This document shows, one piece after another, positions 46,623-63,673 of a DNA stretch of 64,000 nucleotides (the stretch's first letter is position 1; every line of letters starts with the position of its first letter). Made by a program: the position numbers and the translations under genes. The notes under the pieces were generated by a model, which was not told where the DNA came from, did not search any database, and saw only the letters and a list, made by a program, of their open reading frames with translations. This DNA is from Halobacillus litoralis. GTDB lineage: Bacteria; Bacillota; Bacilli; Bacillales; Halobacillaceae. The stretch covers positions 490,001 to 554,000 of the forward strand of contig NZ_CP129016.1 of NCBI RefSeq assembly GCF_020524085.2. The letters run 5' to 3'.

Positions 46623-47173
46623 TGGCAGGATTGTGTAAGGCTAAGTTTCGAGATGTTCTCGGGGTTCGTTGCCCGGGGTGAGCGTAAGGGGTGGCTGGGA
46701 AGCTACTCGCTTTCCTGTGGGGGGAGTGCCGAGCTTCCCCGGGCTGCGCCCTGCGGGATCTCGCCTATCTCCTTTCTCCCACGGGAGTCTCGCACCTTCC
46801 CAACCACCCCATTCGATATGTACGTGAAACGAACCCCTTACCGAGTATAAGAATTTTTAACAAATCATGATCTATAGTCATAAAGCGCTCTATAATATGC
46901 TTTTTTATTTATAATTGCGGTGGAATATGCATATTGCTTTGTTTTCCTTGCAAGATAAAAGCTCCCTTTTCCGCAAGTGGTTTCGAGACACTGATATGAC
47001 AAAGGGGCGTAGGGGAATGGCGAGACTCCTGCGGGAAGAGAGTGCTTGGTGAGACCCCACAGGACGCAGTCCGAGGAGGCTCACCGCGCTCCCGCGGAAA
47101 GCGAGCTGTTCCCCGCAGCCCCATCCACTCAACAAAAGTCTCGAAACTGAGTTTTCAAGTAAAGGGAGCTTTA
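46623..47173. repeat. dispersed mosaic repeat, copy 5 (full length)
   Basis: About 550 bp in the gap between the convergent TVP38 and FAD-oxidoreductase genes. Ends: TTTGGCAGGATTGTGTAAGG on the left and TTTTCAAGTAAAGGGAGCTT on the right. Module A (GGGGTGGCTGGGAAGCTACT ...) comes first and module B (GGCGAGACTCCTGCGGGAAG ... CCCGCGGAAAGCGAGCTG) second, in the same orientation as copies 1 and 4. Confidence 0.85.
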
Positions 47174-49825: not shown

Positions 49826-51340
49826 TTAAGCAGATGTTTTTTCTTCTTTTTCCTTCCCTCGATCAAGCGCGATTTTATCTGCACGAATGGCTTTATATAA
49901 GGATACGACCATTAAGATCATAATGAAAGAGAATGGAAAGGCTGCGGATATAAGCGCGTTCTGCAGCGCCTGCAAACCACCGGAATATAACAACACAGCG
50001 GCCATGGACGACTGGATAATTCCCCATACGAACTTAACCATTGTAGGTGGTGTAAGAGATCCGTTGGTCGTCTGCATCCCTAATACAAAGGTTGCAGAGT
50101 CTGCGGATGTAATGAAGAACGTTCCAATCAATACCATCGCGATGATCGACAAGATCAATCCGAGCGGGTAATTATCGAATGTACCAAACATCACTTGCTC
50201 CGTAGCTAGATCGGAAAGTCCTCCTTGATCTTGTTGGACTTGGATGGCCGATGAACCGAAAGTGGAGAACCATAGAAAACCTACAGCAGACGGTACAAGT
50301 AGCACACCTGATAAAAATTCGCGGATTGTACGTCCTTTAGATACACGTGCGATAAAGATTCCAACAAACGGGGACCAAGCAATCCACCATGCCCAGTAAA
50401 AGACCGTCCAGTTGTTGATCCATGTACGGTTTTCTTCACTGTTCGGTGCAAGACGGAAGCTCATGGTCGGCAAGTTTTGTAAGTAAGCACCGATCGTGTC
50501 TGTAAACATGTTCATAATGAAGAGCGTCGGACCTACAATCAACATAATAGCAAGCAAAGCTATAGCTAAAATCATATTCGTATTACTTAAATAGCGAATT
50601 CCTTTGCTCAATCCAGAATAAGCGGAAATCATGAACAAAACAGTAACAACACCTATGATAATCAACTGAATACCGAACGAATCCTCCAAAGGTGTCAAGA
50701 ATGTCAATCCACCATTGATTTGTGCTGCACCAAATCCAAGAGTCGTCGCTACACCGACAATGGTCGCAAATACGGCGATAATATCGACAACTTTCCCCCA
50801 CGGTCCATTCATTTTATCCCCGAATAAGGGCTCAAGTGTGGAGCTGATTAAAGCCGGTGCACCTCGACGGAACTTGAAATACGCAAGGACTAGAGCAACG
50901 ATTGCGTAGATTCCCCATGCATGGACTCCCCAGTGGAAGTACACGAATCGCATGGATTCATTAAGAGCGGCCGCTGTTCCCGTCTCTGCAGTCGGAGCAT
51001 TATTAGCATAAAAGTAGATTGGTTCTGCCGCTCCCCAGAAGACGAGCCCGATTCCCATCCCGGCACTGAAAAGCATCGCAAACCATGTCGCGTAGTTGTA
51101 ATCAGGCTTGTCCGTGGGCTTTCCAAGTTTCATTTTTCCATAAGGACTGAAAATCATATAAAGGCAGAAAATCACAAAACCAGTAACAATCAATAAGTAG
51201 TACCAACCAAAGTGAACAGAAATATAAGATTGAATACTTCCTGTAATACTTTCTAGATTTTTTGGGGCAACCGCACCCCAAGCGACTGAAAATAGTGCAA
51301 TGGCTAATGTAACCCAAAAAACAGATGTGACTTTTTTCAT
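49826..51340 (-). CDS. BCCT-family compatible-solute transporter 1 (OpuD-like)
   Basis: A 504-residue membrane protein with about 12 hydrophobic segments. Signatures are AMLFSAGMGIGLVFWGAAEPIYFY (residues about 90-112) and the Trp-rich NWTVFYWAWWIAWSPFVGIF then IARVSKGRTIREF. BCCT carriers import glycine betaine, choline or similar osmoprotectants with Na+. The specific substrate is not clear. AAGGAG precedes the start. A second BCCT gene lies at 52876. Confidence 0.93.
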   Translation of the reverse strand: MKKVTSVFWVTLAIALFSVAWGAVAPKNLESITGSIQSYISVHFGWYYLLIVTGFVIFCLYMIFSPYGKMKLGKPTDKPDYNYATWFAMLFSAGMGIGLVFWGAAEPIYFYANNAPTAETGTAAALNESMRFVYFHWGVHAWGIYAIVALVLAYFKFRRGAPALISSTLEPLFGDKMNGPWGKVVDIIAVFATIVGVATTLGFGAAQINGGLTFLTPLEDSFGIQLIIIGVVTVLFMISAYSGLSKGIRYLSNTNMILAIALLAIMLIVGPTLFIMNMFTDTIGAYLQNLPTMSFRLAPNSEENRTWINNWTVFYWAWWIAWSPFVGIFIARVSKGRTIREFLSGVLLVPSAVGFLWFSTFGSSAIQVQQDQGGLSDLATEQVMFGTFDNYPLGLILSIIAMVLIGTFFITSADSATFVLGMQTTNGSLTPPTMVKFVWGIIQSSMAAVLLYSGGLQALQNALISAAFPFSFIMILMVVSLYKAIRADKIALDRGKEKEEKTSA

Positions 51341-51479
51341 TGTAAACTCCTTTCCAGAACTTGTACGTATTTTCGGTACAGGGGAATGATTATTCGAGGG
51401 GTAGCATCCGATGGTGTATGTTTAACGAATACCCAAACAAAGAAAAAATAAACAATTCGTCGAATTTTCCCTACATAAA

Positions 51480-51520
51480 ATATAGCCCAAAAGACGGATG
51501 TCTCCTGGGCTTTTATCATT
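51480..51520 (-). terminator. possible terminator of the nucleotidyltransferase-like gene
   Basis: Minus-strand AAAAGCCCA ... TGGGCTATATTTT forms a modest hairpin about 30 bp after the stop at 51542 and 140 bp before BCCT gene 1. Confidence 0.5.
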
Positions 51521-51541
51521 TTAAAAGTTTCTTATAAGGGT

Positions 51542-52108
51542 TCAATAGAGTAAGGTCTCGAGCCATGGATGTTCAGGCTGGTGATGCATGAGCGCCTGTT
51601 TCAACCACTCTTTCTGATGTTCATTCAAGTAAGGAAAGACGTGAAGGAAGTCCTCTTCGTCTTTCTCTGTAGTGTCGGTTGATTTATAGAGAAGAACAAT
51701 TTCAGGGTTTAAATACGGGTGTCCATGTTCTGACTGCAGGTGCATACGATTAATATCAAATGTAATGGAGGCATCTCTTCTGAACTGCCACCGGTGCCTG
51801 TTTTTTTCATTGAGGAGAATTTCGAACCTATGACCCTCTTGAGAAAAAGCATGGATTTCATGGACAGGAAGGGTGAGGGGTTCCCCTTCCCAACGTTTGA
51901 GTTCCTTCTGTTTGACGACATGCAAATCCCACGATTTCAATACTTGGTATAATTCGTGCTGATCTTCACGGAAAATGGCGACTTCCACATCTTCATGATG
52001 CCTTGTTTCTTCTCCGATATAAAGGTCGATAGCCCATCCCCCCGCAAACATCCATTCTCCCTCAAACTCACTTAACCACTGCCGTACTTCTGTACATTTT
52101 TCAAACAT
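51542..52108 (-). CDS. nucleotidyltransferase-fold protein (aminoglycoside adenylyltransferase-like)
   Basis: A 188-residue protein. MFAGGWAIDLYIGEETRHHEDVEVAIF (residues about 21-47) holds the GG(x)8-10 D-x-E/D pattern of nucleotidyltransferases such as ANT(2'')/LinB-like enzymes. Many such Bacillus proteins have no proven resistance role. The ATG at 52108 follows AGGAGGAT; an open frame seven codons longer is not supported. Confidence 0.8.
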   Translation of the reverse strand: MFEKCTEVRQWLSEFEGEWMFAGGWAIDLYIGEETRHHEDVEVAIFREDQHELYQVLKSWDLHVVKQKELKRWEGEPLTLPVHEIHAFSQEGHRFEILLNEKNRHRWQFRRDASITFDINRMHLQSEHGHPYLNPEIVLLYKSTDTTEKDEEDFLHVFPYLNEHQKEWLKQALMHHQPEHPWLETLLY

Positions 52109-52233
52109 GTGAATCCTCCTCATTATCATCTTGTCCGAGTTTAAAACCTCTTAACCCAATCCTTCTTCAACTCTTTCTTTTGGAAAAGTTTTCTTATACG
52201 ATAGGGGATATATACATACACGGGGGAATGGAT

Positions 52234-52785
52234 ATGCTCAAAGGAAATCTTGTTGAACTCCGTCCTGTTTCAAAGGACGACTTGAAACACTTATTTAAGT
52301 GGGCGAATGATGAAGAAATAGCGAATCTTGCACATGGGAGCGACTCAGCCTATCAAAATAACAACCCACAAGAAGATCTAGAAGCATTCTATGATAAAAA
52401 TCTTACTGCGCAACCTCTATGGGAAAGTGGACGTGTTTTCATTGTCTATACGATCAGTACAGGAGTGCCTATTGGGAAATGCAGCTACAGCAACTTGAAT
52501 CCCGTGACAAGGGCAGCAGAAATCGGTTTGAGCATCGGGGAAAGAGAATATTGGGGGCATGGATATGGAAGGGACATCATTCAAACCTTGTTGAAACACC
52601 TCTTTCACACCCTGAACCTCGAACGTGTTCAACTGGACACGTGGAGCGGTAACACACAAGCGCTAAGACTTTACGAAAAAACAGGCTTCCAGACAGAAGG
52701 CCGGCTCCGTAAAAATGAATATGTGGAAGGCACTCATTATGACACGATCCTTATGGGGATGCTTCGATCCGAATTCAACGCGTAA
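52234..52785 (+). CDS. GNAT-family N-acetyltransferase (RimJ/SpeG-like)
   Basis: A 183-residue acetyltransferase. The fold opens with LVELRPVSKDDLKHLFKWAN, and the acetyl-CoA loop is EYWGHGYGRDIIQTLLKHLF (about residues 108-127), followed by RLYEKTGFQTEGRLRKNEYVEG. The acceptor is unknown. The ATG at 52234 has CGGGGGAA upstream; longer open frames reach back to 52180. Confidence 0.87.
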   Translation: MLKGNLVELRPVSKDDLKHLFKWANDEEIANLAHGSDSAYQNNNPQEDLEAFYDKNLTAQPLWESGRVFIVYTISTGVPIGKCSYSNLNPVTRAAEIGLSIGEREYWGHGYGRDIIQTLLKHLFHTLNLERVQLDTWSGNTQALRLYEKTGFQTEGRLRKNEYVEGTHYDTILMGMLRSEFNA

Positions 52786-52875
52786 ATGTTTTTCTCAGGA
52801 AAATGTAGGGAATAAACAAACCGATCATCAAATTCATGTTCATCTATTACTTATGATTCATGAAAGGAGTCCACG

Positions 52876-54384
52876 ATGAAAGATCAAATCAAAAACCCTG
52901 TTTTCCTCATTTCTGCAACCGTCATCACTGTCCTCGTCATCGTAGGAGCAATTAACCCAGAAGGCTTCGGTACAGTCGCCGGTACCTTATTTGATTTCAC
53001 TACGATTAATTTCGGCTGGTTTTATCTCATTTCCGTCTTCGGCTTTGTCATTTTCATGGCTGCTCTCGGACTGAGTAAATACGGAAAGATTAAAATCGGG
53101 CCTCAAGATTCAAAGCCTGAATTTCCTTTCTTCACTTGGATTGGCATGCTCTTCTCTGCCGGATTCGGGGTAGGACTTGTATTCTGGGGAGTGGCAGAAC
53201 CGATGAGTCACTTCTTTGAAACGCCATTCTCAGATTTGGATGCCCAAACTGAGGATGCTGCGCGTGTCGCTATGGGATACTCTTTTTTCCACTGGGGAAT
53301 TAACCAATGGTCCGTTTTCGCCATTGTCGGCCTGCTTATTGGCTTTTTGCAATTCAGAAAGGATAAGAACGGCCTCGTATCTACTGCTCTTGAACCCGTG
53401 CTCGGGAAATCAAAGCCCGTGAAGTACACCATCGACTCATTAGCCGTCATCGCTACAGTAATGGGAATCGCCACATCCTTAGGACTCGGTATCCTCCAAA
53501 TGAACGGTGGGTTGAACGCCGTATTCGGCATTCCAAATAGTACATCGATCCAGCTTATCATAACAGGCGTACTGCTCGTCTTATACTTAACCTCATCCAG
53601 CACTGGATTAGAAAAAGGGATCAAATGGCTCAGTAACTTGAACCTGGCCCTATGCTTAGTTTTACTTTTATTTGTCTTCTTCGCCGGTCCGACTGTCTTT
53701 ATTTTAAATAGTTTCACCTTAGGGATCGGAGATTATATTACCAACTTTGTGGGGTACAGTCTTAGATTGACCCCCTATGAAGGCGGGAGTTGGCTCCGGG
53801 ATTGGACGATTTTCTATTGGGCATGGGTCATTGCATGGTCTCCATTCGTAGGGGCATTCGTTGCACGAGTTTCCCGAGGTCGAACAATAAGGGAGTTCAT
53901 ATTCGGTGTCCTTATCGTACCACCGCTGATCGCTTGTTTGTGGATCGCCGTTTTCGGTGGTACAGCCTTGAACAGTGACTTGAACAATGGAACGCAGATT
54001 GCTGAAGCCGTCAATAATGATGTGACGGTCGCTCTCTTTGAAGCTTTTGAATACCTGCCTCTTACAGGTATTTTATCTTTCTTATCGATTTTGTTGATTG
54101 CTACGTTCTTGATCACATCTGCGGACTCAGCTACTTATATTTTGGCAAGTATGACGACGAATGGCAGTCTGACCCCTGCCCTTGCTATTAAAGTGATCTG
54201 GGGTGTCCTGATGGCAGCCATTGCCGGTGTGTTACTGGTCGCAGGTGGGTTGGATGCTTTGCAGACAGCTTCTCTCGTTTCTGCTCTTCCGTTTACAGTA
54301 ATCATCATTCTCTTCGTGTATGCCTTTACGAAGATGATACGAAAAGAGCCGCTGCCCGAACGACGCAGAAAAAAGAACGAATAG
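52876..54384 (+). CDS. BCCT-family compatible-solute transporter 2 (OpuD-like)
   Basis: A 502-residue membrane protein with about 12 hydrophobic segments and both BCCT signatures: GMLFSAGFGVGLVFWGVAEPMSHFF and DWTIFYWAWVIAWSPFVGAF followed by VARVSRGRTIREF. It is probably a Na+-coupled importer of glycine betaine or related solutes. It differs clearly from transporter 1, so the two probably have different substrates or affinities rather than being a recent duplication. GAAAGGAG precedes the start. It converges on the AimP-like gene. Confidence 0.93.
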   Translation: MKDQIKNPVFLISATVITVLVIVGAINPEGFGTVAGTLFDFTTINFGWFYLISVFGFVIFMAALGLSKYGKIKIGPQDSKPEFPFFTWIGMLFSAGFGVGLVFWGVAEPMSHFFETPFSDLDAQTEDAARVAMGYSFFHWGINQWSVFAIVGLLIGFLQFRKDKNGLVSTALEPVLGKSKPVKYTIDSLAVIATVMGIATSLGLGILQMNGGLNAVFGIPNSTSIQLIITGVLLVLYLTSSSTGLEKGIKWLSNLNLALCLVLLLFVFFAGPTVFILNSFTLGIGDYITNFVGYSLRLTPYEGGSWLRDWTIFYWAWVIAWSPFVGAFVARVSRGRTIREFIFGVLIVPPLIACLWIAVFGGTALNSDLNNGTQIAEAVNNDVTVALFEAFEYLPLTGILSFLSILLIATFLITSADSATYILASMTTNGSLTPALAIKVIWGVLMAAIAGVLLVAGGLDALQTASLVSALPFTVIIILFVYAFTKMIRKEPLPERRRKKNE

Positions 54385-54393
54385 ACGAGAACG

Positions 54394-54433
54394 AAAAAGG
54401 TGTCCTATTCCAATACCGGAAGGACACCTTTAC
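54394..54433. terminator. bidirectional terminator between BCCT 2 and the AimP-like gene
   Basis: Stem AAAGGTGTCCT / AGGACACCTTT with a 13-nt loop, lying between two convergent genes and 15 bp after the peptide gene stop. Confidence 0.88.
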
Positions 54434-54447
54434 TATTTCCTATACTT

Positions 54448-54579
54448 TTAACGTTCTGGATTTTGTATACTCCAATAACCTCCATCAATCGGATCGTGGG
54501 CGGTCTTACTCTCTCCTATCCCCCATGAGCCTGCAAGCGTCAGTAAAAGAACAACAAACAATCCGGTTAACCTTTTCAT
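54448..54579 (-). CDS. secreted signalling-peptide precursor (AimP-like, 43 aa)
   Basis: A 43-codon ORF that starts 21 nt after the receptor gene's stop on the same strand. It begins MKRLTGLFVVLLLTLAGSWG, a typical Sec signal peptide (positive N-terminus, hydrophobic core, small residues), then IGESKTAHDPIDGGYWSIQN and ends PER. Its length equals that recalled for AimP of phage phi3T, and the organisation (receptor gene, then a small exported peptide gene) matches Phr/AimP/PapR precursors. The mature peptide should come from the C-terminus, but the end IQNPER does not look like the xxxRGA AimP forms. GGGGG precedes the ATG by 8 nt. A terminator follows. No sequence family is claimed; the call rests on context and architecture. 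Confidence 0.65.
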   Translation of the reverse strand: MKRLTGLFVVLLLTLAGSWGIGESKTAHDPIDGGYWSIQNPER

Positions 54580-54600
54580 AAAAGAAACCCCCATTTATTT

Positions 54601-55617
54601 TTATATTCTTTCTAAATACGCTAGCGGTAATTGGGCAAAGAAGTAATCCCCTTGTTCTTGAATAAAACGGTGATAGGAATGCCTCAGCATCTCCCTGTTC
54701 CCTGTAGCCAGACCCAAATAACTTTCTTGAAAAGGAGTGAGTGATGGGAAGGAATGCAGGATCTGCTGTGTTTTCTCATAATCTCCCCGCGCTAAAGCAA
54801 GGTGAGCCTGCTCTACTGGATCCGTAGTAGATATCCCTTCTGTTCTCTGATGAAAGGAAGATATAAAAGGGAGCGAGCGGTTTTTTACCGTTTGCAAAAA
54901 ACGTAAATGCCCATGTTTTTGAGCAATTTCCATGGACTTTAGTAACGATTCCATAGAAGATTCATAGCCATTAAAAAGCTGGCATAAGGCCAAATCATGA
55001 TGCATGCGGCTCTTTCTTCTAGAAGAAACTTCTGTGTTGATCATTTTATATGCATAACGGCTTGCAAGAATAGAGTTATTGGTCTTCCAATAATGATAAA
55101 AAAGCAACTCTTGATAACGTTGATTCAAATAATAATACATCAAAGGCTCGTCTACTTGCTGAAGCGCCTGATCGCATTCATCCAAGTACTTATCCAATGC
55201 TGTAAATACTTTCAAGTCCTGATAAGAATAAACAAGGGTGAACAAATGAAGACATCGTAACGATGGATGCATAAAATGGAGATCTTTTAGCTCATCTAAG
55301 TAATTTTTGTTTTTATCTCTACCCGTTTGAGACAGGATCACTCGATACAAATGACCCACCTCTTTATTTATGTAAGGAGATTCTGTTATGACAGACAGCT
55401 CTTCAAAAAAATCATTCATATAAAAAAATTCCATGCAGACAATTTGTTCATCAATGGTTCTAGGGAAATGAGAGAGGATGTAGTCTTTCGTCCGCAAGAC
55501 AGCATCCCTTCTAGGATACTTCCTTAAATAATCCAGGTAAACGTCATATAAAGAGGAAGTGCGACTCATTTGAAGCTTTCGCAATGGGCTCGGTTCAATT
55601 AGTTGATCATCTGCCAC
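54601..55617 (-). CDS. AimR-family (RRNPP-type) peptide pheromone receptor
   Basis: A 338-residue, all-helical protein of TPR-like repeats. It resembles AimR, the arbitrium receptor of SPbeta-type phages: the C-terminal part has VEQAHLALARGDYEKTQQIL (about residues 268-287) and ends YFFAQLPLAYLERI, which parallel the EQAH and LPLLELQ regions I recall from SPbeta AimR. The N-terminus is about 25-30 residues shorter than SPbeta AimR, so the first DNA-binding helix may be missing. The GTG at 55617 has AAGGAGG 9 nt upstream; an earlier GTG at 55626 is too close. The next gene is a secreted-peptide candidate. No phage genes are near. In arbitrium, AimR is a transcription activator switched off by peptide binding; the target here is unknown. 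Confidence 0.8.
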   Translation of the reverse strand: MADDQLIEPSPLRKLQMSRTSSLYDVYLDYLRKYPRRDAVLRTKDYILSHFPRTIDEQIVCMEFFYMNDFFEELSVITESPYINKEVGHLYRVILSQTGRDKNKNYLDELKDLHFMHPSLRCLHLFTLVYSYQDLKVFTALDKYLDECDQALQQVDEPLMYYYLNQRYQELLFYHYWKTNNSILASRYAYKMINTEVSSRRKSRMHHDLALCQLFNGYESSMESLLKSMEIAQKHGHLRFLQTVKNRSLPFISSFHQRTEGISTTDPVEQAHLALARGDYEKTQQILHSFPSLTPFQESYLGLATGNREMLRHSYHRFIQEQGDYFFAQLPLAYLERI

Positions 55618-55648
55618 AACACTCACCCTCCTTATCTATCTTTATTCT

Positions 55649-55677
55649 ATTTTATTGAATTTTCGAAAATATGTCTA
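55649..55677 (-). promoter_or_regulatory. sigma-A promoter of the AimR-like gene with a palindrome in its spacer
   Basis: Minus-strand TAGACA (55672-55677) and TAAAAT (55649-55654) are separated by 17 bp. The spacer contains the perfect 12-bp palindrome ATTTTCGAAAAT (55659-55670), a good position for a repressor or autoregulator. The transcript would start near 55642, about 25 nt before the GTG. Confidence 0.7.
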
Positions 55678-55747
55678 TACAATACTTAAAGATATTGAAA
55701 TATTTATGGATTATATTTCCTTTTAAACCTCACTTCTTATTCCATAA

Positions 55748-56297
55748 ACGCTCCCTATACTTGAAGACTCAGTTTCGAGAATTTTGTTGAGCGGATGGGG
55801 GCTGCGAGGAATAGCTCGCTTTCCGCGGGAGCGCGGTGAGCCTCCTCGGACTGCGTCCTGTGGGGTCCCACCATGCACTTTTTTCCCGCAGGAGTCTCGC
55901 CATTCCCCTCCGCCCCTTCGCCATATAAGTATCTCGAAACCACTTCTGGAATAAGCTGCTTTTACACGTTGTCATTCGAACGGAATGGAATTCCAAGGAC
56001 GCCATTCAGCATCCTGAAAGCTTGTGATAGAGCGCTTTATACTAATCACACCAGGATAGTGGAAGAGCTTTCAACCTAGTACAGGGGTTCGTTTCTCACT
56101 TACATCGAAAGGGGTGGTTGGGAAGCTGCGAGACTCCCGCGGGAATGGATGGACTGGCAAGACCCCACAGTGCGAAGCACGAGGAGGCTTGCCGTCATCC
56201 CCGCAGGAAAGCGAGTAGCTTCCCGACCACCCCTGACGCCCAACATAGCAACGAACCCCGGAAACATCTCAAAACTGAATCTTCCACAATCCTGCCA
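55748..56297. repeat. dispersed mosaic repeat, copy 6 (full length, inverted)
   Basis: About 550 bp between the AimR-like gene and the YdjM-like gene. Ends: CGCTCCCTATACTTGAAGAC on the left and TCTTCCACAATCCTGCCA on the right. Module B comes first (plus strand reading GGGGCTGCGAGGAATAGCTC ... GCGAGACTCC in complement), then an AT-rich middle, then module A (GGGGTGGTTGGGAAGCTGCG). It is therefore opposite in orientation to copies 1, 4 and 5. Confidence 0.85.
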
Positions 56298-56318
56298 TAT
56301 TGTTTAATAAATGGGTAT

Positions 56319-56350
56319 AAAAAAAGACACTACTAGAATGTAGTGTCAGA
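56319..56350 (-). terminator. terminator of the YdjM-like gene
   Basis: Stem GACACTAC / GTAGTGTC, followed on the minus strand by seven T, overlapping the stop codon. Confidence 0.88.
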
Positions 56351-56957
56351 AAATGTTTGAGGTGAGGTACCATACGTTCCACAGAAGCAGGCTGTACACA
56401 ATGAGACGCTCACTGTTGGATCCTGTTCGGAAAGTAAAAATGAACTGTAAATACTTCTTTGAAAAAGGATAAGCTAACGGGATGCCTTTTTTCGTTATGT
56501 AATCACCAAACAAATGCGAAATCACCCCTAAAATCAAGCCACCAATATACATGCGGGGAATGGCGAAGGCTTGCTCAAGGATAATTCCGTAACCGATAAG
56601 TAAACCGACAAACAACACGGAATGAGTCATTTTTCTATGTCCGCGAATCATGATGAGGATGGGGAGAAGCAGCATGACGAAAATTTTCAGTTGTTCTCGA
56701 TAGGTATCCAAATACTCTGGTACAAACAAATAACAGAGAAAAGCGACGGTAAAGACCGTCATAAGTCCCCGCCAAAACTTGTGGCCGAGGGTAGATGTTG
56801 GTGTGTCGATGTCCGGCAAAAGCGAGCCGAAAAGGACGAACACAAAAAATAAAACCGTTTGGAGAGGCTGTTCAGGCATCCACTCGAACGTAGGGAGTAA
56901 TGTCATAGCTCCCACCCCGAAAGTAAAGCCCACAACCTGGTGTCCTGATGCCATCAT
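56346..56957 (-). CDS. YdjM-family membrane-bound metal-dependent hydrolase (DUF457)
   Basis: A 203-residue membrane protein with about five hydrophobic segments. FGSLLPDIDTPTSTLGHK (residues about 42-59), HRKMTHSV and ISHLFGDYITKKGI hold the conserved Asp and His residues of the YdjM/LexA-binding putative hydrolase family. Its biochemical role is unknown. The start follows AGAGGA by about 12 nt. Confidence 0.85.
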   Translation of the reverse strand: MMASGHQVVGFTFGVGAMTLLPTFEWMPEQPLQTVLFFVFVLFGSLLPDIDTPTSTLGHKFWRGLMTVFTVAFLCYLFVPEYLDTYREQLKIFVMLLLPILIMIRGHRKMTHSVLFVGLLIGYGIILEQAFAIPRMYIGGLILGVISHLFGDYITKKGIPLAYPFSKKYLQFIFTFRTGSNSERLIVYSLLLWNVWYLTSNIF

Positions 56958-57033
56958 GATGGATAGTGATCCTCTTTTCTAATATGTATATTTCATTAAG
57001 GAGGTCCCTATATTCGGGGCGTCCTCCTATGAA

Positions 57034-57055
57034 AATAAACCCACAAAACTGTGGG
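57034..57055 (-). terminator. terminator of the HesB-like gene
   Basis: Stem CCCACA / TGTGGG, followed on the minus strand by TTTATTTT. Confidence 0.75.
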
Positions 57056-57062
57056 CATCTAT

Positions 57063-57347
57063 TCAACAGTCTTTTTCGGGAAGCCCAAGCATTTGAAACT
57101 TCGGCCCTTCCATTGTCTGCTTCCCTTCAATTGTCAAAGTTTCAGTCAGATGTGCAATTCTACTATCTATGGCCACGGGAATAGAATTGATGTGATGAAG
57201 TTCATCATCACCTTCCGGTTCACCAATCGTCATACCGATATCTGGCTCCCCACACCCGTACCCAGCAAAAAACAGCCGCAGGCATCCTGCATCTTCATCT
57301 TCTAAGATTTGATTCAACAAATCTCTCGCTTGGTCGGTGATTTTCAT
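57063..57347 (-). CDS. HesB/IscA-like protein
   Basis: A 94-residue protein of the HesB/IscA fold (MKITDQARDLLNQILEDEDA, then CLRLFFAGYGCGEPDIGM). The cysteines are CLRLF and GYGC, plus a C-terminal EKDC; the spacing differs from A-type Fe-S carriers and resembles the HesB-related family that includes selenoproteins. An Fe-S role is not proven. The ATG at 57347 has AAGGGG upstream; a GTG three codons earlier is the alternative. Confidence 0.8.
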   Translation of the reverse strand: MKITDQARDLLNQILEDEDAGCLRLFFAGYGCGEPDIGMTIGEPEGDDELHHINSIPVAIDSRIAHLTETLTIEGKQTMEGPKFQMLGLPEKDC

Positions 57348-57448
57348 CGCCTTCACCCCTTCGACTATAAAATACCATAATTACCAGTAGGCCTGGTAGT
57401 AATACGAATCGCACCTCATACGCTACAACTATTCTTCCCTTCCTATAA

Positions 57449-57483
57449 ATAAAAATCCCTGGTGGAATTTCCACCAGGGATGA
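57449..57483 (-). terminator. terminator of ohr
   Basis: Stem AATCCCTGGTGG / CCACCAGGGAT with loop AATTT, followed by T-rich sequence on the minus strand. Confidence 0.88.
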
Positions 57484-57495
57484 AGAGGTTATCTT

Positions 57496-57912
57496 TTATA
57501 CGGCGCTCGCATTGATCTCAACGTCGATGTTTCCACGCGTTGCTTTAGAGTATGGACATACTTTGTGAGCTTCCTCAGCAAGTGATTCCGCTTCTTCTTG
57601 AGAAACGCCTTTCACTTTAACATTAAGGACAACGCCTACTTTAAAACCATTGTCCGATTCATCTTTCATAAGGCTTACGTCAGCAGTGATTTCTGATTCA
57701 ATATCTTTCTTCTGTTTACTTGCAACTAGGTTCAACGCTCCATCATAGCAAGCGGAATAACCAGCAGCAAACAATTGCTCTGGGTTCGATCCTTTTTCAT
57801 CACCTTCGCCAGGCATGGAAAGGTTCAAATCAATTAAACCATCGTCTGACTTAACGTGGCCATTTCGTCCACCTTGTGCTGTTGCATGTGCGGTAAACAT
57901 TACATTACTCAT
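57496..57912 (-). CDS. ohrB: organic hydroperoxide resistance protein (Ohr/OsmC family, OhrB-like)
   Basis: A 138-residue thiol peroxidase that reduces organic hydroperoxides. The active-site cysteines are in YSACYDGAL (about residue 55) and HKVCPYSKAT (about 119), and the family opening TAHATAQGGRNGHV is intact. B. subtilis OhrB is controlled by sigma-B and OhrA by OhrR; no ohrR is seen here and a near-consensus sigma-B promoter precedes the gene, so OhrB is the better match. AAGGAGTGATGG precedes the start. Confidence 0.92.
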   Translation of the reverse strand: MSNVMFTAHATAQGGRNGHVKSDDGLIDLNLSMPGEGDEKGSNPEQLFAAGYSACYDGALNLVASKQKKDIESEITADVSLMKDESDNGFKVGVVLNVKVKGVSQEEAESLAEEAHKVCPYSKATRGNIDVEINASAV

Positions 57913-57955
57913 TATCCATCACTCCTTGACTAATTATTGAATCCACAACAGTTAC

Positions 57956-57981
57956 ATACCTCATCTTGCCGTTGATTAAAC
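57956..57981 (-). promoter_or_regulatory. sigma-B promoter of ohr
   Basis: Minus-strand GTTTAA (57976-57981) and AGGTAT (57956-57961) with a 14-bp spacer: a perfect -35 and a 5/6 -10 for sigma-B. The transcript would begin about 35 bp before the gene start. Regulation of an ohr gene by sigma-B agrees with B. subtilis ohrB. Confidence 0.8.
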
Positions 57982-57985
57982 ATTT

Positions 57986-58267
57986 CTATTCATCATAGAC
58001 GCGGTACTCCTTTTGCAAGTCCACAGGAGCCATCTTCACCATCCATTGCATGATATAAGTGAAAACCGCAAGATCATCGACAAGACCGAAAAATACGAGG
58101 AAATCCGGGATCACGTCCCATGGGAATAGAAGATAAGCTACTAAGAGTACAACCGAAAACCATTTCTTACCCGCACTCACATCTTTTGATTTAAAAAATC
58201 GCACAAGAAACGGCACAGATTTTCTGACATTGAAAAGAAACTTAATTCTTCGCCATAAACGGATCAT
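57986..58267 (-). CDS. YkvA-like DUF1232 membrane protein
   Basis: A 93-residue protein with the DUF1232 core: VLLVAYLLFPWDVIPDFLVFFG (residues about 40-61) and DDLAVFTYIM. One or two hydrophobic segments are visible. Its function is unknown. The ATG at 58267 has GGGGGGAAGG upstream; an open frame back to 58330 is not supported. It lies 74 bp upstream of ohr on the same strand. Confidence 0.85.
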   Translation of the reverse strand: MIRLWRRIKFLFNVRKSVPFLVRFFKSKDVSAGKKWFSVVLLVAYLLFPWDVIPDFLVFFGLVDDLAVFTYIMQWMVKMAPVDLQKEYRVYDE

Positions 58268-58583
58268 CGCCTTCCCCCCTCTCCCTATTATACCCTTCTT
58301 ATTACGACATGAAGCAAGCAGAATCCTCACAATTGCTTAAATAAGACGTATACTTTACCATAAAAAGAAAAGAGACTATTCACATATATTCCGACCGTTA
58401 CGATGCTCCACATCTACCCACCATGAAGGATGACGGTTGAACTTCGAGCTGCACCCTTTAAAGCAGATTTAATAAGATAATTGGGCGACCCCAACACATA
58501 CTACCATTAGCTACATAGCCCATTTTATTAAATGCTGCATAGGATAACATAGCTCAAAGAAAATTGAAGGGGAGAAAGTTGCC
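58268..58583. other. intergenic gap without recognised features
   Basis: Just over 300 bp between divergent genes. A TATAAT lies near 58300 on the minus strand and could serve the YkvA-like gene, but no matching -35 is seen. I see no hairpin, repeat or ORF with a ribosome site in the rest. Confidence 0.5.
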
Positions 58584-59135
58584 ATGAAGATCCTACTATT
58601 GAACGGAACGATCGTCGGGAAAAAGACCCGTACGCTCCTTGATGAAATCGAAAAATATATACAACAACTGCCAACGGACCACACGACAAAAATTGTTGAC
58701 CTCGAGAACTACGAGCTTCAATTCGTGGATGGCCGCCCAGCTGAAGAGTACAATGATGATATGAAGAAGTTAATCCATGAAATTGAAGAAGCTGATGCTT
58801 ATGTCATCGCTACTCCCGTTTTTCAAGGATCGATTCATGGTACTTTGAAAAACGTATTTGATGCCGTATCCCCCCTTGCCATGCGATATAAACCCGTGTC
58901 TATTGTCGCCAATGGGGGTACCTTGCAACATCACCTCGTCGTAGAAAATCAATTAAAACCAATCTTGAATTACTTCCGGTGTATGGTGACACCAAACTAC
59001 GTGTACACACACACGAATCACTTCTCCACTCAGGGAGAGCTCATTGACGAAGACGTCCGCAACCGCTTGAAAGAGATGACCGTCGTTTTTGATCAATACA
59101 TGCAGATGAGCCGGGAACTTGAACCAGATAAATAA
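58584..59135 (+). CDS. NADPH-dependent FMN reductase-like flavoprotein
   Basis: A 183-residue flavodoxin-fold reductase. MKILLLNGTIVGKKTRTLLD holds the phosphate-binding loop, and YVIATPVFQGSIHGTLKNVFDAV the FMN contacts. It belongs to the SsuE/AzoR-like group; the electron acceptor is not known. GAAGGGGAG precedes the start. Confidence 0.87.
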   Translation: MKILLLNGTIVGKKTRTLLDEIEKYIQQLPTDHTTKIVDLENYELQFVDGRPAEEYNDDMKKLIHEIEEADAYVIATPVFQGSIHGTLKNVFDAVSPLAMRYKPVSIVANGGTLQHHLVVENQLKPILNYFRCMVTPNYVYTHTNHFSTQGELIDEDVRNRLKEMTVVFDQYMQMSRELEPDK

Positions 59136-59187
59136 GAGACGGGTTTCATTACAGTTCTGATATCTTTTAAACAGTTTTTCTATAACT

Positions 59188-59224
59188 AAAAAGCGCGGGG
59201 TCTACATAAGACACCCGCGCTCCT
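59188..59224. terminator. bidirectional terminator
   Basis: Stem AGCGCGGGGTCT / AGACACCCGCGCT with A and T runs, between the convergent FMN reductase and lytic transglycosylase genes. Confidence 0.88.
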
Positions 59225-59863
59225 TTATGCTCTTCCAAGTATTTTTGTTATGTAATTTTGCGTTTCCCGGAATGGTGGTACACCATCATACTTGTCTACG
59301 TTCCCAGGACCAGCATTATAAGCAGCAAGCGCTAATTCGGTATTGCCATCATAACGATCGAGCATCTGCCTCAAATATTTTGTCCCGCCCATCAAGTTCT
59401 GCTCCGGATCAAATGGATCCTTCACGCCAAGTCCCTTCGCTGTAGCAGGCATAAGCTGCATCAACCCTTGAGCTCCTGCATGACTGACGACACCAGCATC
59501 AAAATTCGACTCAGCCTTCACCACAGACCGCACCAAATTTTCATCAACCCCGTGGCGTTCTGAAGCTTTCTTTATGAGATTATCCAAACCCGCGTTTCCA
59601 CTGGTTACTTCCGCAATATTATTCCCTTCCTGACTTTTCTCTACAGGAACTGGTACCTGCTGTGTCAAAAGGTTGTTCACTGGTTGTGAAAAACGCTTTG
59701 GCACGGAAGGTGCACTCTCACGAATCGCTTGCTCCATCACTGCATTCAAAAGGCTTTGAAACGTCATATTCTGCATCCCACTTGATAAAGTGTTCGAATT
59801 CCGATTATCTAACATAGACATGGCCTGCATTTGAATCATTTGTTGGATCTTGCTTACATCCAT
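59225..59863 (-). CDS. lytic transglycosylase (SLT domain)
   Basis: A 212-residue protein. Residues 1-100 are low-complexity (MQAMSMLDNRNSN). The SLT domain follows: HGVDENLVRSVVKAESNFD (catalytic Glu in VKAESNF, about 125), SHAGAQGLMQLMPATAKGLG and LALAAYNAGPGNVDKY. It cleaves peptidoglycan to 1,6-anhydroMurNAc. No signal peptide is visible, as in the YjbJ-type Bacillus proteins. The ATG at 59863 has TGGAGTGGAG upstream; longer frames reach 59908. Confidence 0.88.
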   Translation of the reverse strand: MDVSKIQQMIQMQAMSMLDNRNSNTLSSGMQNMTFQSLLNAVMEQAIRESAPSVPKRFSQPVNNLLTQQVPVPVEKSQEGNNIAEVTSGNAGLDNLIKKASERHGVDENLVRSVVKAESNFDAGVVSHAGAQGLMQLMPATAKGLGVKDPFDPEQNLMGGTKYLRQMLDRYDGNTELALAAYNAGPGNVDKYDGVPPFRETQNYITKILGRA

Positions 59864-59992
59864 GTTCTCCACTCCATATAGTTGATAGTTCAAGTGTACA
59901 AGATTCATGCTTTTTCAACAATCATTCTTCTGAATATATTTTACAAATTACCAATAGTAGTCAAAACTTGAGAAAATTTTTTCTTAAAACCT

Positions 59993-60193
59993 CTATTCAG
60001 TTATCATTTTTGAACGTTTTTTTCCCAAAGCAGCAACCAAGGAAAAGGTGATACAATAAAGAATAGCAAAAGAGATACTGAATCGTGCAGTGCGCTGTTG
60101 TGCTGGTTGTCCACGACTTCGCACATGGTTTATTTGTTCAATGGTATTCATTTCTTTCTTGAGTACTCTCTTTTGTCTCTTACGTCGAATCAC
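59993..60193 (-). CDS. possible 66-residue single-pass membrane protein
   Basis: An open frame starting GTG at 60193, basic at both ends (MIRRKRQKRVLKKEM and GKKRSKMITE) with one hydrophobic segment (FSISFAILYCITFSLVAAL). No convincing ribosome site precedes it, and its start overlaps the promoter of the putative plus-strand RNA at 60209. It resembles nothing I know, and could be chance. Confidence 0.3.
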   Translation of the reverse strand: MIRRKRQKRVLKKEMNTIEQINHVRSRGQPAQQRTARFSISFAILYCITFSLVAALGKKRSKMITE

Positions 60194-60202
60194 CCTATTA
60201 TT
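60173..60202 (+). promoter_or_regulatory. sigma-A promoter of a putative small RNA
   Basis: TTGTCT (60173-60178) and TATTAT (60197-60202) are 18 bp apart. The -35 has 4/6 and the -10 5/6 matches. The predicted start is near 60209. Confidence 0.5.
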
Positions 60203-60208
60203 TTTCCC

Positions 60209-60310
60209 CGCCAGGAAAAATAACCTGTAGATTTCATGGTCTGTCTTCCTTCAATGAAAAGACATATACCATCTCCCCCCTTTTGCCCATTCAAAAGGGG
60301 GCTTTTTTTA
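60209..60310 (+). ncRNA. candidate small RNA with C-rich stretches and its own terminator
   Basis: About 100 nt with no coding potential. It begins CCGCCAGG, contains a hairpin with paired ATGGT / ACCAT and TGTCTT / AAGACA arms (60237-60272), then CTCCCCCC and the strong terminator stem CCCCCTTTT / AAAAGGGGG (60276-60301) with seven T. C-rich single strands near a terminator are a feature of the RoxS/RsaE and FsrA-type regulatory RNAs of Bacillota, which pair with ribosome sites. No sequence match to those is claimed. No ORF precedes the terminator on this strand, so it is not merely the end of a gene. Confidence 0.5.
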
Positions 60311-60327
60311 TCCTCTTTTATATCTCT

Positions 60328-60880
60328 AAAGCTCCCTTTACTTGAAGACTCAGTTTCGAGACTTTTGTTGAGTGGGTGGGGCTGCGGGAAACAGTTCGCT
60401 TTCCATGGGGCGGGCGGTGAGCCTCCTCAGGCTACGCCTTCCGGGGTCTCACCTGTCCCACACGTCCCATAGGAGTCTCACGGTTTCCCTCCGCCCCTTG
60501 ACTTTATAAGCGTCTCGAAACCACTACTGGAATAAGAAGCTTTCAAGCTTGATAGCATTGTGGGCGGTAAACTTCTACCCTATGTGTATTTGAATTCTGA
60601 AAGCTTGTTAGAGAAGGCTTTATGCTTATTAAAGCGGGAAAGTGGAAGGCAGTCCCTTTGAGCAAAGGGGTTCGTTTACGCATAAATCGAAAGGGGTGGT
60701 CGGGAAGCTGCGAGACTCCCGTGGGAATGGATTGGCTGGCGAGACCCCACAGGACGAAGTCCGAGGAGGCTTGCCGTCATCCCCACAGGAAAGCGAGTAA
60801 CTTCCCGACCACCCCTCACGCTCAACAAAGCAACGAACCCCAAAAAACATCTTGAAATCAAGTCTTCCACAAACCTGCAT
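60328..60880. repeat. dispersed mosaic repeat, copy 7 (full length, inverted)
   Basis: About 550 bp. Ends: AAAGCTCCCTTTACTTGAAG on the left and AAGTCTTCCACAAACCTGCA on the right. Module B (variant with CCATGGGGCGGGCGGTGAG, shared with copy 4) is followed by an AT-rich middle and module A (GGGGTGGTCGGGAAGCTGCG). Frames such as 60622-60855 and 60629-60930 lie within it and are not genes. Confidence 0.85.
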
Positions 60881-61003
60881 AATGACATAATATTAGACAA
60901 GGTCCGTGTTCTGTGTGGACAAGCCGGCAATTTATTTTTTTAAAAGCTAAATATTCCACGTTTGTACATCATATATTGAAAGTACAAAGGAGGTGGAATA
61001 AAG

Positions 61004-61195
61004 ATGGATTTCAACAACCGTGTGTTCTTGTTTCTAGCTGCTCTTCTTTCCGGCTATGCGCTTTACAGCATCGGCGACTCAGCTGGTAACTTCTTCGATC
61101 AATTCTTGTTCTACGCCGGCTACATTGCAATGATACTTTTTTCTTTCGCTATTATTATCGTCGGGCTGGCAAGATTCTTGAATCAGTACAAATAG
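61004..61195 (+). CDS. small membrane protein of unknown function (63 aa)
   Basis: A 63-residue protein with two hydrophobic segments (VFLFLAALLSGYALYSI, about 7-23, and YAGYIAMILFSFAIIIVGLA, about 38-57). A strong ribosome site (AAAGGAGGTGG) lies about 8 nt before ATG, and a strong terminator follows, so it is probably a real single gene. I recognise no family. Confidence 0.75.
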   Translation: MDFNNRVFLFLAALLSGYALYSIGDSAGNFFDQFLFYAGYIAMILFSFAIIIVGLARFLNQYK

Positions 61196-61225
61196 AAAAT
61201 GGCCTTTCTATATGAGAGGGACGTG

Positions 61226-61262
61226 TAAAAAAAGGCTGCGGATGATCCGCAGCCTTTTTTAT
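61226..61262. terminator. bidirectional terminator
   Basis: Stem AAAAAAGGCTGCGGAT / ATCCGCAGCCTTTTTT between the small membrane protein gene and the convergent YueI-like gene. Confidence 0.92.
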
Positions 61263-61702
61263 TTTGATGATTTAAAAAGAGATTTGAAGAAGCCTGTCCA
61301 CCCTTCCTGCTCCGACGACTCTCCGACTCCCTCTTGTTCTTTAATCGTTATGTCTTCTTTTTCAATTGCGTAATCCAAAGTGAGGACAGCCCCGAATTCT
61401 GAATGTGTTTCCATATTCGAAACGATGGAGTGGTGGATGTTATGCTCATCGGCTAGATCCATGTAGGGAGATAAAAACCGATAGCTCACATCTCCGTTCA
61501 AAAGCAGTTCGGCATCTGGATAGCTTCTCATCAGATCCACCACCGCTTCCTCCCCCTGCTGCCGCATCACCTGCCCCTTCGTCAAAGCAACCAAGACTCG
61601 TTCTCTTAACGTACCGAGGTATTGTTTTCTTTCTCCTGGCTTTGTTTGACGACTTCCATAAATCCCTTCCTGTAAGTAATCTTTCATATCTGGTTTCTTC
61701 AT
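61259..61702 (-). CDS. YueI-like protein (DUF1694)
   Basis: A 147-residue protein matching the YueI family: KDYLQEGIYGSRQTKPGERK then YLGTLRERVLVALTKGQVM, and a conserved centre DAELLLNGDVSYRFLSPYMD. Its function is unknown. The ATG at 61702 has GAGGTG upstream; an open frame to 61720 starts six codons earlier. The C-terminal tail is acidic and variable. Confidence 0.87.
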   Translation of the reverse strand: MKKPDMKDYLQEGIYGSRQTKPGERKQYLGTLRERVLVALTKGQVMRQQGEEAVVDLMRSYPDAELLLNGDVSYRFLSPYMDLADEHNIHHSIVSNMETHSEFGAVLTLDYAIEKEDITIKEQEGVGESSEQEGWTGFFKSLFKSSK

Positions 61703-61735
61703 AAGATGCACCTCATTCACTCCTAGTATGGCACA

Positions 61736-61766
61736 GAAAAAAGGCTGTACCCTAACAGCCTTTTTC
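61736..61766 (-). terminator. terminator of the BmrU-like gene
   Basis: Stem AAAGGCTGT / ACAGCCTTT followed on the minus strand by T-rich sequence, immediately after the lipid kinase stop. Confidence 0.88.
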
Positions 61767-62647
61767 TATTTTACAACGACGGATATGTGAGATGGAAGAA
61801 CGGACAATTCTACAGGCAGGGAGTCTCCTTCTTCTCCGTCGACGTTCGTGACCAGGTCTTCCTCCGATGTGATACGGATATGATCCGCTTTGAAGTATTC
61901 CACATCCTGCTCATCTTTAAGACCACCTCGAAGAATAGCAGAAACAATCGATGCGAGACGAATCATATTTACTTTAGGTACGATATACCCGTGAATCTTC
62001 CCGTCATTCACTTTCGCTTCCGGAGATAATTTTTCAAATCCGCCTGCTGAGTTGGTTAAGGCCGCTAGGAAAAGAAAAGATTCCCCTTCCCAGGCTTTAT
62101 CATCATATTCGATCCGCATTGGATAACTACTATGCTGGGTCAAGGTTTTCATCCCTTCCATCATATACGCAAGTGGACCAAATTTCGTTTTTTGTTCAGG
62201 TGTCACTTCATATGTCGCTTCAGCAAGGGATCCCGCTGCTACAATATTCACAAAATATTGGTCATTGAACTTCCCAATATCCACAGATTTGGTCTGATCA
62301 GAACGGAGAACATCAATAGCCTCCTCAACCTTGAGTGGAATATCAAGAGCTCTTGCAAAATCGTTGACTGTACCCAGTGGAATGATTCCCAAATGCGGTC
62401 GGTGACTTTCGTCTACCATCCCATTGATTGTCTCATGGAGGGTACCATCTCCCCCCATAGAAACGACGAGATCGAATTCGTCTCTGCAGGCGTTCTGGCA
62501 ATACTTTGTGGCATCCAGCTCTTTTTCTGTTTGAGAAACTTCCACTTCGTATCCTTTTTCCGATAAAATGTGCTCGATTTGTTCAACATGATCGACGGCT
62601 TCCTCTTTTCCAGAAGAAGGATTAACGATCAACATAGCCTTTTTCAT
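61766..62647 (-). CDS. YegS/BmrU-family lipid kinase
   Basis: A 293-residue DAGK-domain kinase. AMLIVNPSSGKEEA is at the N-terminus, and VVSMGGDGTLHETINGM (residues about 60-76) and GIIPLGTVNDFARAL are the catalytic-loop signatures, followed by NVDGEEGDSLPVELSVLPSH. It probably phosphorylates a lipid such as diacylglycerol or undecaprenol; the substrate is unknown. The ATG at 62647 follows GGAGAGGAG; longer frames reach 62665. It lies 26 bp downstream of the GNAT gene on the same strand. Confidence 0.88.
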   Translation of the reverse strand: MKKAMLIVNPSSGKEEAVDHVEQIEHILSEKGYEVEVSQTEKELDATKYCQNACRDEFDLVVSMGGDGTLHETINGMVDESHRPHLGIIPLGTVNDFARALDIPLKVEEAIDVLRSDQTKSVDIGKFNDQYFVNIVAAGSLAEATYEVTPEQKTKFGPLAYMMEGMKTLTQHSSYPMRIEYDDKAWEGESFLFLAALTNSAGGFEKLSPEAKVNDGKIHGYIVPKVNMIRLASIVSAILRGGLKDEQDVEYFKADHIRITSEEDLVTNVDGEEGDSLPVELSVLPSHISVVVK

Positions 62648-62673
62648 TCTATTTCTCCTCTCCAAAACATCCT

Positions 62674-63132
62674 TTATCCTTCCGACTGGTATTCATAAAG
62701 GGTGCTGACAGAAGAAAAGCCGATTTTGCGGATGAATTCACTTATCCCATTCTGATGTGGCCTGAGACTTACCTGGATAGCTTTCGCATCCTTCTCATAC
62801 ATCCACTTGATCAGTTCAGCACACAAGTCTGTGCCTATACCTTCTCGTCTGTAAAATTCATCCACAAACACTTCCCGGACATATCCATACACATCTTCTT
62901 CCCCATGGGACTCGATGATGCCAAGGACATATCCGATCATTCTTCCATTCATATCAGCAACTAGTAGTTTCTGTGTCGGGTTCTTTGCTAAAAAATGATC
63001 GGCCGCCCAGTACTTACGATCCCTCAATTCTTCATTAGTCAGCATCTCAGAACTGGTTACGTGAAGAAAGTCGATGCTGTACCTTGTAAAATGCATCAAG
63101 TCTTTTTCCTCAGGTTCCCTTATTTCCACCAT
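62674..63132 (-). CDS. GNAT-family N-acetyltransferase
   Basis: A 152-residue acetyltransferase. VEIREPEEKDLMHFTRYSID opens the fold. YVREVFVDEFYRREGIGTDLCAELIKWM (residues about 82-109) is the acetyl-CoA region with the R/Q-x-x-G-x-G/A-type turn RREGIGT. The substrate is unknown. GAGGAGG precedes the start. It lies 14 bp downstream of the YjdJ-like gene, probably co-transcribed. Confidence 0.87.
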   Translation of the reverse strand: MVEIREPEEKDLMHFTRYSIDFLHVTSSEMLTNEELRDRKYWAADHFLAKNPTQKLLVADMNGRMIGYVLGIIESHGEEDVYGYVREVFVDEFYRREGIGTDLCAELIKWMYEKDAKAIQVSLRPHQNGISEFIRKIGFSSVSTLYEYQSEG

Positions 63133-63146
63133 CAGAAACTCCTCCT

Positions 63147-63422
63147 CTAAGCTTTTAACACCACTTGATATTCCGGTGTATTTTCAATAACTTCCCGGGC
63201 GAAGGAGCAGACCGGGTCAATTTTCAATTTATGTTTACGTGCATAGTTCACAGCATAATCAATCAATTCCCCGCCCAAACCCTGTTCACGTTCAGAGGGT
63301 GCAACGAAAGTGCTTGTGATGACCATAGTATTGTCATTTTCTTCAAATAAAACCTGTGCTTTAGGATCGTGTTCCTCTCCTATAAAAAACGTCCCTTGTT
63401 TCTCTTGGATTTCTTGCTCCAC
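63147..63422 (-). CDS. YjdJ-like small GNAT acetyltransferase
   Basis: A 91-residue protein of the YjdJ/YidJ GCN5-related group: NTMVITSTFVAPSEREQGLG, then GGELIDYAVNYARKHKLKID and CSFAREVIE. It is the compact acetyltransferase form with one conserved cysteine (PVCSFA). The substrate is unknown. The start is GTG at 63422 with GGAGAG upstream. A weak sigma-B-like promoter and a Spo0A-box-like array lie upstream. Confidence 0.87.
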   Translation of the reverse strand: MEQEIQEKQGTFFIGEEHDPKAQVLFEENDNTMVITSTFVAPSEREQGLGGELIDYAVNYARKHKLKIDPVCSFAREVIENTPEYQVVLKA

Positions 63423-63448
63423 AACAATCTCTCCTTTCCCTATAAAGG

Positions 63449-63473
63449 ATACCCTTTCATCGTTAAGAAAAAC
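63449..63473 (-). promoter_or_regulatory. possible sigma-B promoter of the YjdJ-like gene
   Basis: Minus-strand GTTTTT (63468-63473) and GGGTAT (63449-63454) with a 13-bp spacer. The -10 is perfect and the -35 is 4/6. Weaker than those before rsbV and ohr. Confidence 0.45.
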
Positions 63474-63538
63474 ATGAGCTTGCGGAGGTGAAGGCTGGTG
63501 ATGGTATGAATGAAGTGCTTGGCAGCGATCATGAGGTA

Positions 63539-63587
63539 GTCGACAATGTTATTTAGATATTCGACACCATTAATTAAGTATTCGACA
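63539..63587 (-). promoter_or_regulatory. array of three Spo0A-box-like heptamers at exact 21-bp spacing
   Basis: On the minus strand TGTCGAA (63581-63587), TGTCGAA (63560-63566) and TGTCGAC (63539-63545) occur at exactly 21-bp intervals, about two helical turns. TGTCGAA is the consensus Spo0A box (0A box). The heptamers lie 117-165 bp upstream of the YjdJ-like start. They could also be remnants of a mobile-element end. Confidence 0.45.
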
Positions 63588-63631
63588 TACTACCAGAGAT
63601 GCTCATCCCCATCCCTAGGTGCCCATAGACA

Positions 63632-63672
63632 AAAAAAGAGCACCTACTTTGAAAAAGTAGGTGCTCTTTAAC
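63632..63672 (-). terminator. terminator of the CstA-like gene
   Basis: Stem AAAGAGCACCTACTTT / AAAGTAGGTGCTCTTT followed on the minus strand by seven T, directly after the stop codon. Confidence 0.92.
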
Positions 63673-63673
63673 A

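Follow-up and report, generated by a model that had tools for sequence, protein, structure and literature searches.

We analysed a window of 64,000 nucleotides (nt) from the Halobacillus litoralis chromosome (contig NZ_CP129016.1, positions 490,001 to 554,000; positions below are those of the window), in which two adjacent genes on the minus strand encode a receptor and a small secreted peptide. The receptor gene (54601..55617) starts with GTG and encodes an AimR-family protein of 338 amino acids (aa) without the helix-turn-helix (HTH) domain and C-terminal tail of AimR. The second gene (54448..54579, minus strand) starts 21 nt after the receptor stop codon and encodes an aimP-like propeptide of 43 aa, whose leader was assigned to the Sec type from a hydrophobicity script and visual inspection. 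The gap of 63 nt between the propeptide and a convergent BCCT transporter gene contains a terminator-like inverted repeat on the minus strand (54396..54431, arms 54396-54405 and 54422-54431), whose stem is followed by Ts. This stem was read from the sequence; its loop is too long for the consensus scan, in which it is hence unlisted. The initial annotation of this DNA had described the same arrangement, a 338-residue receptor, a 43-codon open reading frame (ORF) 21 nt downstream and a terminator, and the ORFs and the stem were found in six of six genomes (the window and five close genomes).

The receptor is an AimR-family protein. It matched Pfam PF22871 (AimR) with an E value of 2.1e-45 (155.6 bits, cut-off 26.7), NCBIfam NF038310 with 2.7e-34 (118.8 bits, cut-off 70) and PHROG 1728, a phage regulator family, with 1.9e-32. 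A profile of 55 receptors (the window's own, 43 more from the GTDB family that also lack the HTH, one that has it and ten from the order) matched the solved AimR structures of the PDB at 1.9e-22, with the alignment beginning at AimR residue 53. The AlphaFold2 model of the window receptor had a mean predicted local distance difference test score (pLDDT) of 92.8, and its 15 Foldseek matches in the PDB with E ≤ 0.001 were all AimR, with template modelling (TM) scores by query of 0.64-0.80. The EQAH and AQLPLAYLERI (LPL..L) segments, which the initial annotation had likened to SPbeta AimR, do align with it. The proposed profile search against AimR, Rap and PlcR was thus positive for the first; Pfam gave AimR only, with no RapH_N, and the family search with the propeptide gave a single match, to Bacillus PapR (residues 7-27), which is sub-threshold at E 0.08. 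Membership in Rap was rejected, since RapH_N is missing and Rap chains ranked below AimR in Foldseek, with E 0.013 or worse and TM below 0.5. Of the 44 family genomes, 30 contain RapH_N domains, which lie in frames of 427-493 aa, the size of NprR; the own genome contains none.

The initial annotation overlooked that, to judge from the alignments, this receptor has lost three parts of AimR: the HTH domain, the side chains that contact DNA and the dimer helix at the C-terminus. Residues 1-59 of SPbeta AimR form the HTH, K79 and R82 contact the DNA backbone, and dimer formation is nucleated by a conserved helix at the C-terminus that includes L380, L383, L384 and L386 (PMC6458997). In the window receptor, a 21-residue N-terminal segment with an IEPSP motif (55555..55617, minus strand) stands before the first tetratricopeptide repeat (TPR) helix in place of HTH helices 1-3, and the protein ends at AimR residue 374, the hydrophobic dimerisation helix being absent. 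The open stretch in frame with the receptor reaches 344 aa at most, that is, six or fewer extra residues upstream of the start.

Loss of these parts is a property of the group. Model hits at the family level numbered 55, including one unrelated TPR protein and one broken copy; among the other 53, which are receptors, 52 read as HTH-less, with starts picked by a ribosome-site script giving 337-348 aa, and the sole one with an HTH-like N-terminus (G022) has 377 aa. The first possible start leaves 35-46 residues ahead of AimR position 60 in 47 of the 52, which is no room for an in-frame HTH, and 53-80 residues are possible in the remaining five. An HTH in frame or an upstream start was rejected by length for the window and the 47 relatives, and for the other five because the stretches upstream of the EP motif were dissimilar between genomes among the five longest open frames compared. 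HTH-less receptors instead bear about 21 N-terminal residues with an EP(S) motif. The equivalent of K79 is acidic (D/E) in 41 of 44 HTH-less receptors and that of R82 is L, I, V or A in 44 of 44. The tail past AimR residue 374 measures at most 10 aa in all 52 HTH-less receptors and at most 9 aa in 16 of 16 order-level members of the clade, compared with 11-15 aa in all 12 receptors whose N-terminus is complete, among them three phage AimRs. For 12 of these 16, length clearly rules out an HTH; L050, L053 and L069 allow up to 51-52 residues and L051 up to 75, and these four are only possibly HTH-less. In a tree of 54 sequences the HTH-less clade received an ultrafast bootstrap of 100, nested within full-N-terminus receptors when the root is placed, by assumption, on phage AimR, and it extends to several families of other Bacillales. 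A second lineage elsewhere in the order (L049, L062-L064, L067 and perhaps L068) looks HTH-less by length and has kept the C-terminal tail; it has possibly lost the HTH independently.

Because the HTH, the DNA contacts and the dimer helix are lost, the receptor cannot act as an arbitrium AimR, which places two HTHs on a long operator. The label "arbitrium-like" given in the initial annotation therefore holds for the family and fails for the mode of action.

The small ORF has 43 codons in six of six close genomes, and DP[G/I]DGGYWSI is invariant in all of them. The propeptide end is variable among close species (ENPEI, ENPES, QNPER, DDPQV), which makes the earlier suggestion of a C-terminal pheromone (GGYWSIQNPER, or 5-10-mers from the end) unlikely. 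The pheromone is likely an internal DP[G/I]DGGYW core; in the window this corresponds to DPIDGGYWSI (propeptide residues 29-38, 54466..54495, minus strand), with approximate ends drawn from the invariance in close genomes. Summed over 15 pairs of the six close genomes, the ratio of nonsynonymous to synonymous polymorphism (pN/pS) was 0.36 in the small ORF and 0.09 in the receptor. Propeptides of relatives carry DPGDxG(I/M/V)G, often in 2-4 copies each. Since DPG-motif peptides have already been described for an AimR subfamily (PMC12700828), the proposal of a new pheromone class did not stand: by its motif, the YW variant is a branch of the known DPG class.

The small ORF is also conserved downstream of the receptor in close relatives; the initial annotation had named its absence there as a refutation. 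Within the 330 nt that follow the gene, 31 of 52 HTH-less receptors have a signal-like small ORF with DPxxxG, as do 0 of 340 control genes, these being neighbouring genes of at least 100 aa at the same loci other than that of the window; the 52 receptors are kin and should not be counted as 52 independent events. Regardless of motif, signal-like small ORFs follow 36 of 52 receptors and 36 of 340 control genes. The DNA pattern of the pheromone core gave two further matches in the own genome, and its reversed control gave one. Downstream of the receptors L073 and L076, we found propeptides with repeated DPVEPP-like units together with a second small ORF ending in DPD[TI]GGMG; these are candidates for a single receptor with two signals.

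Regarding the peptide pocket, the equivalents of F276, E300, D360 and F362 are retained in 44 of 44 HTH-less receptors; AimR positions 296, 329 and 333 fall in alignment gaps and stay outside the comparison. The covariation check proposed earlier gave 18 receptor positions specific to the clade with YW pheromones. Just two of them map to SPbeta contacts (Q133 = L162 and Y174 = N202), about one being expected by chance, and the signal of receptor-peptide covariation is suggestive only.

The pair belongs to the host, at a chromosomal locus with conserved synteny, and is probably inherited mainly vertically. Six named relatives, all Halobacillus genomes, have receptors of 73-95% identity; one of the seven loci (L008), a 32-residue match in a Ghiorsea metagenome-assembled genome, was dismissed as spurious. 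The AimR model found matches in all 22 genomes of the genus, in 40 of the 44 that make up the GTDB family and, across the order, in 86 of the 397 genomes sampled, 80 of the 86 being above cut-off. An intact receptor beside the YdjM gene and/or the BCCT transporter gene (locus A) occurs in 20 of the 22 genus genomes; the exceptions are a broken copy (pseudogene) in G002 and an empty site in G021, where YdjM and BCCT lie about 320 bp apart. Searches with single receptors as queries covered 50,697 phage and 72,556 plasmid records as well as IMG/VR and found no close relative. These searches reach close relatives only, as the window receptor missed SPbeta AimR, which a different query found; synteny is the stronger argument for a host gene. 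On bacterial contigs we also observed five AimR-family genes in a row (G048:C7:93358-100440 and G158:C1:4444491-4450186).

The homology to phage AimR, the pseudogene of G002 and the empty site of G021 might be read as the trace of a domesticated prophage whose arbitrium module is decaying. We regard this as highly improbable, because the receptor has a pN/pS of 0.09, 20 of the 22 genus genomes keep an intact gene at this site, no relative came from phage, plasmid or IMG/VR records within the close reach of those searches, and the clade spans several Bacillales families. A prophage origin of the locus is likewise disfavoured by synteny.

A second location (locus B) adjoins DinB, and a formate/nitrite transporter is close to it wherever the fetched stretch extends far enough. 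This locus has a propeptide-less, HTH-less paralogue in eight Halobacillus genomes (L098, L101, L102, L104, L111, L112, L115 and L013), six of which also have an intact locus A receptor, and likewise in g4. In four g3 genomes the receptor at locus B is accompanied by a propeptide with 3-4 copies of DPGDPGMG; in L084 (G029) three such copies are out of frame with the leader, so that the receptor is intact and the signal gene next to it broken. Locus A receptors without propeptide occur in G005, G007 and G016, so receptors lacking the signal gene are found more than once, at locus A and at locus B. Chromosomal AimRs have been proposed to sense arbitrium-type peptides of phages (PMC9765709), which would make the small ORF incidental, and the propeptide-less receptors at both loci agree with such eavesdropping. 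However, a conserved propeptide accompanies the receptor of the window, 31 of the 52 receptors have a propeptide nearby, and a simpler reading of the locus B orphans is that they may hear the locus A peptide of the same cell. We consider eavesdropping very unlikely as the explanation of the pair, and it is possible that locus B paralogues listen to the pheromone of their own cell.

Comparing the neighbour genes over five kinds of receptor location, we found no gene common to all five; the partner of the receptor is therefore probably encoded elsewhere. This comparison also bears on the alternative that the receptor is one half of a split AimR, which would join in trans with a separate HTH protein in a pheromone-gated complex and so remain a transcription regulator. 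Such a complex would suit the closest full-N-terminus relatives, which are a transcription-factor family, and the retained pocket residues. However, the receptor also lacks the dimer helix and the residues that touch the DNA backbone, and no location-wide HTH partner appears: the neighbours at locus A are YdjM and BCCT, and a MerR/TipA-type regulator adjoins the receptor at locus B in only 7 Halobacillus genomes. We judge the split AimR unlikely.

The explanation we favour, and hold to be probable as a whole, is a host RRNPPA self-signalling pair whose HTH-less, Rap-like receptor acts on a protein. The pair consists of a TPR receptor and an adjacent short propeptide with a predicted Sec-type leader, as RRNPPA pairs do, and it is very probably functional in signalling; that the target is a protein and not DNA is likely. 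By its leader, the propeptide would be exported by Sec, then processed into a short peptide around DP[G/I]DGGYW and re-imported as other RRNPPA pheromones are. The peptide is predicted to bind in the concave TPR groove of the receptor, where several anchor residues are kept. Similar to Rap, the receptor would probably be a monomeric TPR protein that holds its partner until the pheromone alters the receptor shape. For the process controlled, the best guess is the sporulation decision, because the receptor tracks sporulation genes in the family: Spo0A and SpoIVA are present in 40 of 40 receptor-bearing genomes, and three of the four receptor-less genomes have neither. This is a fair guess and no more, and sporulation control as the output is a tentative idea that we rather doubt.

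Several observations weigh against the favoured explanation. All four receptor-less genomes belong to one genus, G037 is receptor-less yet has both sporulation genes, and the Spo0A match of G043 is in two pieces. Some neighbours recur in two locations (catalases at two g3 places, c18/c26/c36 at the g6 place and locus B), and a linked target at these places is possible. The 330-nt test left 21 of the 52 receptors without a propeptide; for two of them, L080 and L095, one lies at a greater distance downstream. In the pocket, the SPbeta contact N202 is replaced by Q, H, Y, N or V, N239 by L in 43 of 44 receptors, and, in all 44, N206 by K and V198 by E; the receptor may hence bind its peptide differently from SPbeta AimR. 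N206 of AimR holds the arginine of phage AimP, and a lysine here would suit a peptide with acidic residues and without arginine. The receptor-peptide structure prediction suggested with the initial annotation gave no support: in AlphaFold2, with the propeptide tethered to the receptor by read-through, no docking was obtained and the core had a pLDDT of about 29, a result that is uninformative or mildly negative.

We might further speculate that the clade represents a second, independent "Rap", in which an ancestral loss of the HTH and the dimer helix in the AimR line converted the phage-type receptor for lysis or lysogeny into a pheromone-gated, monomeric regulator of host proteins, probably of those for sporulation entry. 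The system would now be inherited in Halobacillus and its relatives as well as in other Bacillales, and a single cell could have talker loci (A) together with listener-only paralogues (B). This extended proposal is a substantial possibility that falls somewhat short of even. Rap itself lost its HTH from an HTH-bearing ancestor (PMC12700828), and HTH loss in the AimR line would be a parallel. With Rap-Phr of Bacillus, and phage Rap, the window pair shares the DNA-binding-free TPR receptor and the secreted peptide; it differs in the missing RapH_N match, the weaker fold match and its separate lineage.

Compared with AimR-AimP of the SPbeta/phi3T phages, the pair is alike in the AimR TPR fold, the EQAH and LPL segments, the F/E/D/F pocket residues and the small propeptide directly downstream on the same strand. 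It is unlike them in having no HTH and no dimer helix, in the replaced DNA-backbone residues, in its syntenic position at a conserved chromosomal locus instead of a phage or prophage, and in its DPG-type peptide instead of xxxRGA. No aimX-type gene lies directly downstream, and the 63 nt with the terminator before the convergent BCCT gene leave no room for one. AimR-type receptors outside prophages are already known as chromosomal AimRs (PMC9765709) and "subfamily 21" (PMC12700828); according to the survey PMC9765709, which takes the chromosomal copies mainly as eavesdroppers, almost 90% of those outside prophages have no propeptide, unlike the window pair. PMC12700828 names HTH loss for Rap and subfamily 17, and PMC10075063 charts HTH detection per cluster and reports that AimR HTHs can escape public models. 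Among open-licence PMC titles and in passages of PMC9765709, PMC12700828 and PMC10075063, we found no AimR receptors described as lacking the HTH or the dimer helix. Arbitrium receptors are usually studied as phage transcription factors; a large clade that keeps the pheromone and the pocket anchors and has none of what AimR needs for DNA binding would mean that the sensing module is reusable for protein control. This would be a natural repeat of the split between Rap and NprR, and what the receptor binds could be tested directly in a harmless halophile.

As for transcription and translation signals, a Shine-Dalgarno sequence AAGGAGG (55627..55633, minus strand) precedes the receptor, with the GTG start 9 nt after it. 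A promoter-like site TAGACA-17-TAAAAT (55649..55677, minus strand) is a consensus match only; its stretch is conserved in five close relatives, with the first hexamer differing in one, and promoter-like sites were not enriched (5 found, 4.1 expected in shuffled sequence). Rfam families had zero matches in window positions 50000-64000. Just upstream of the receptor promoter region lies a copy (55780-55960) of a GC-rich dispersed repeat of about 180 bp, which also occurs at 46969-47137 and 6647-6811; the own genome has 174 candidates for it, and the 40 that were scored all matched (the query and 39 others with 88-98% identity).
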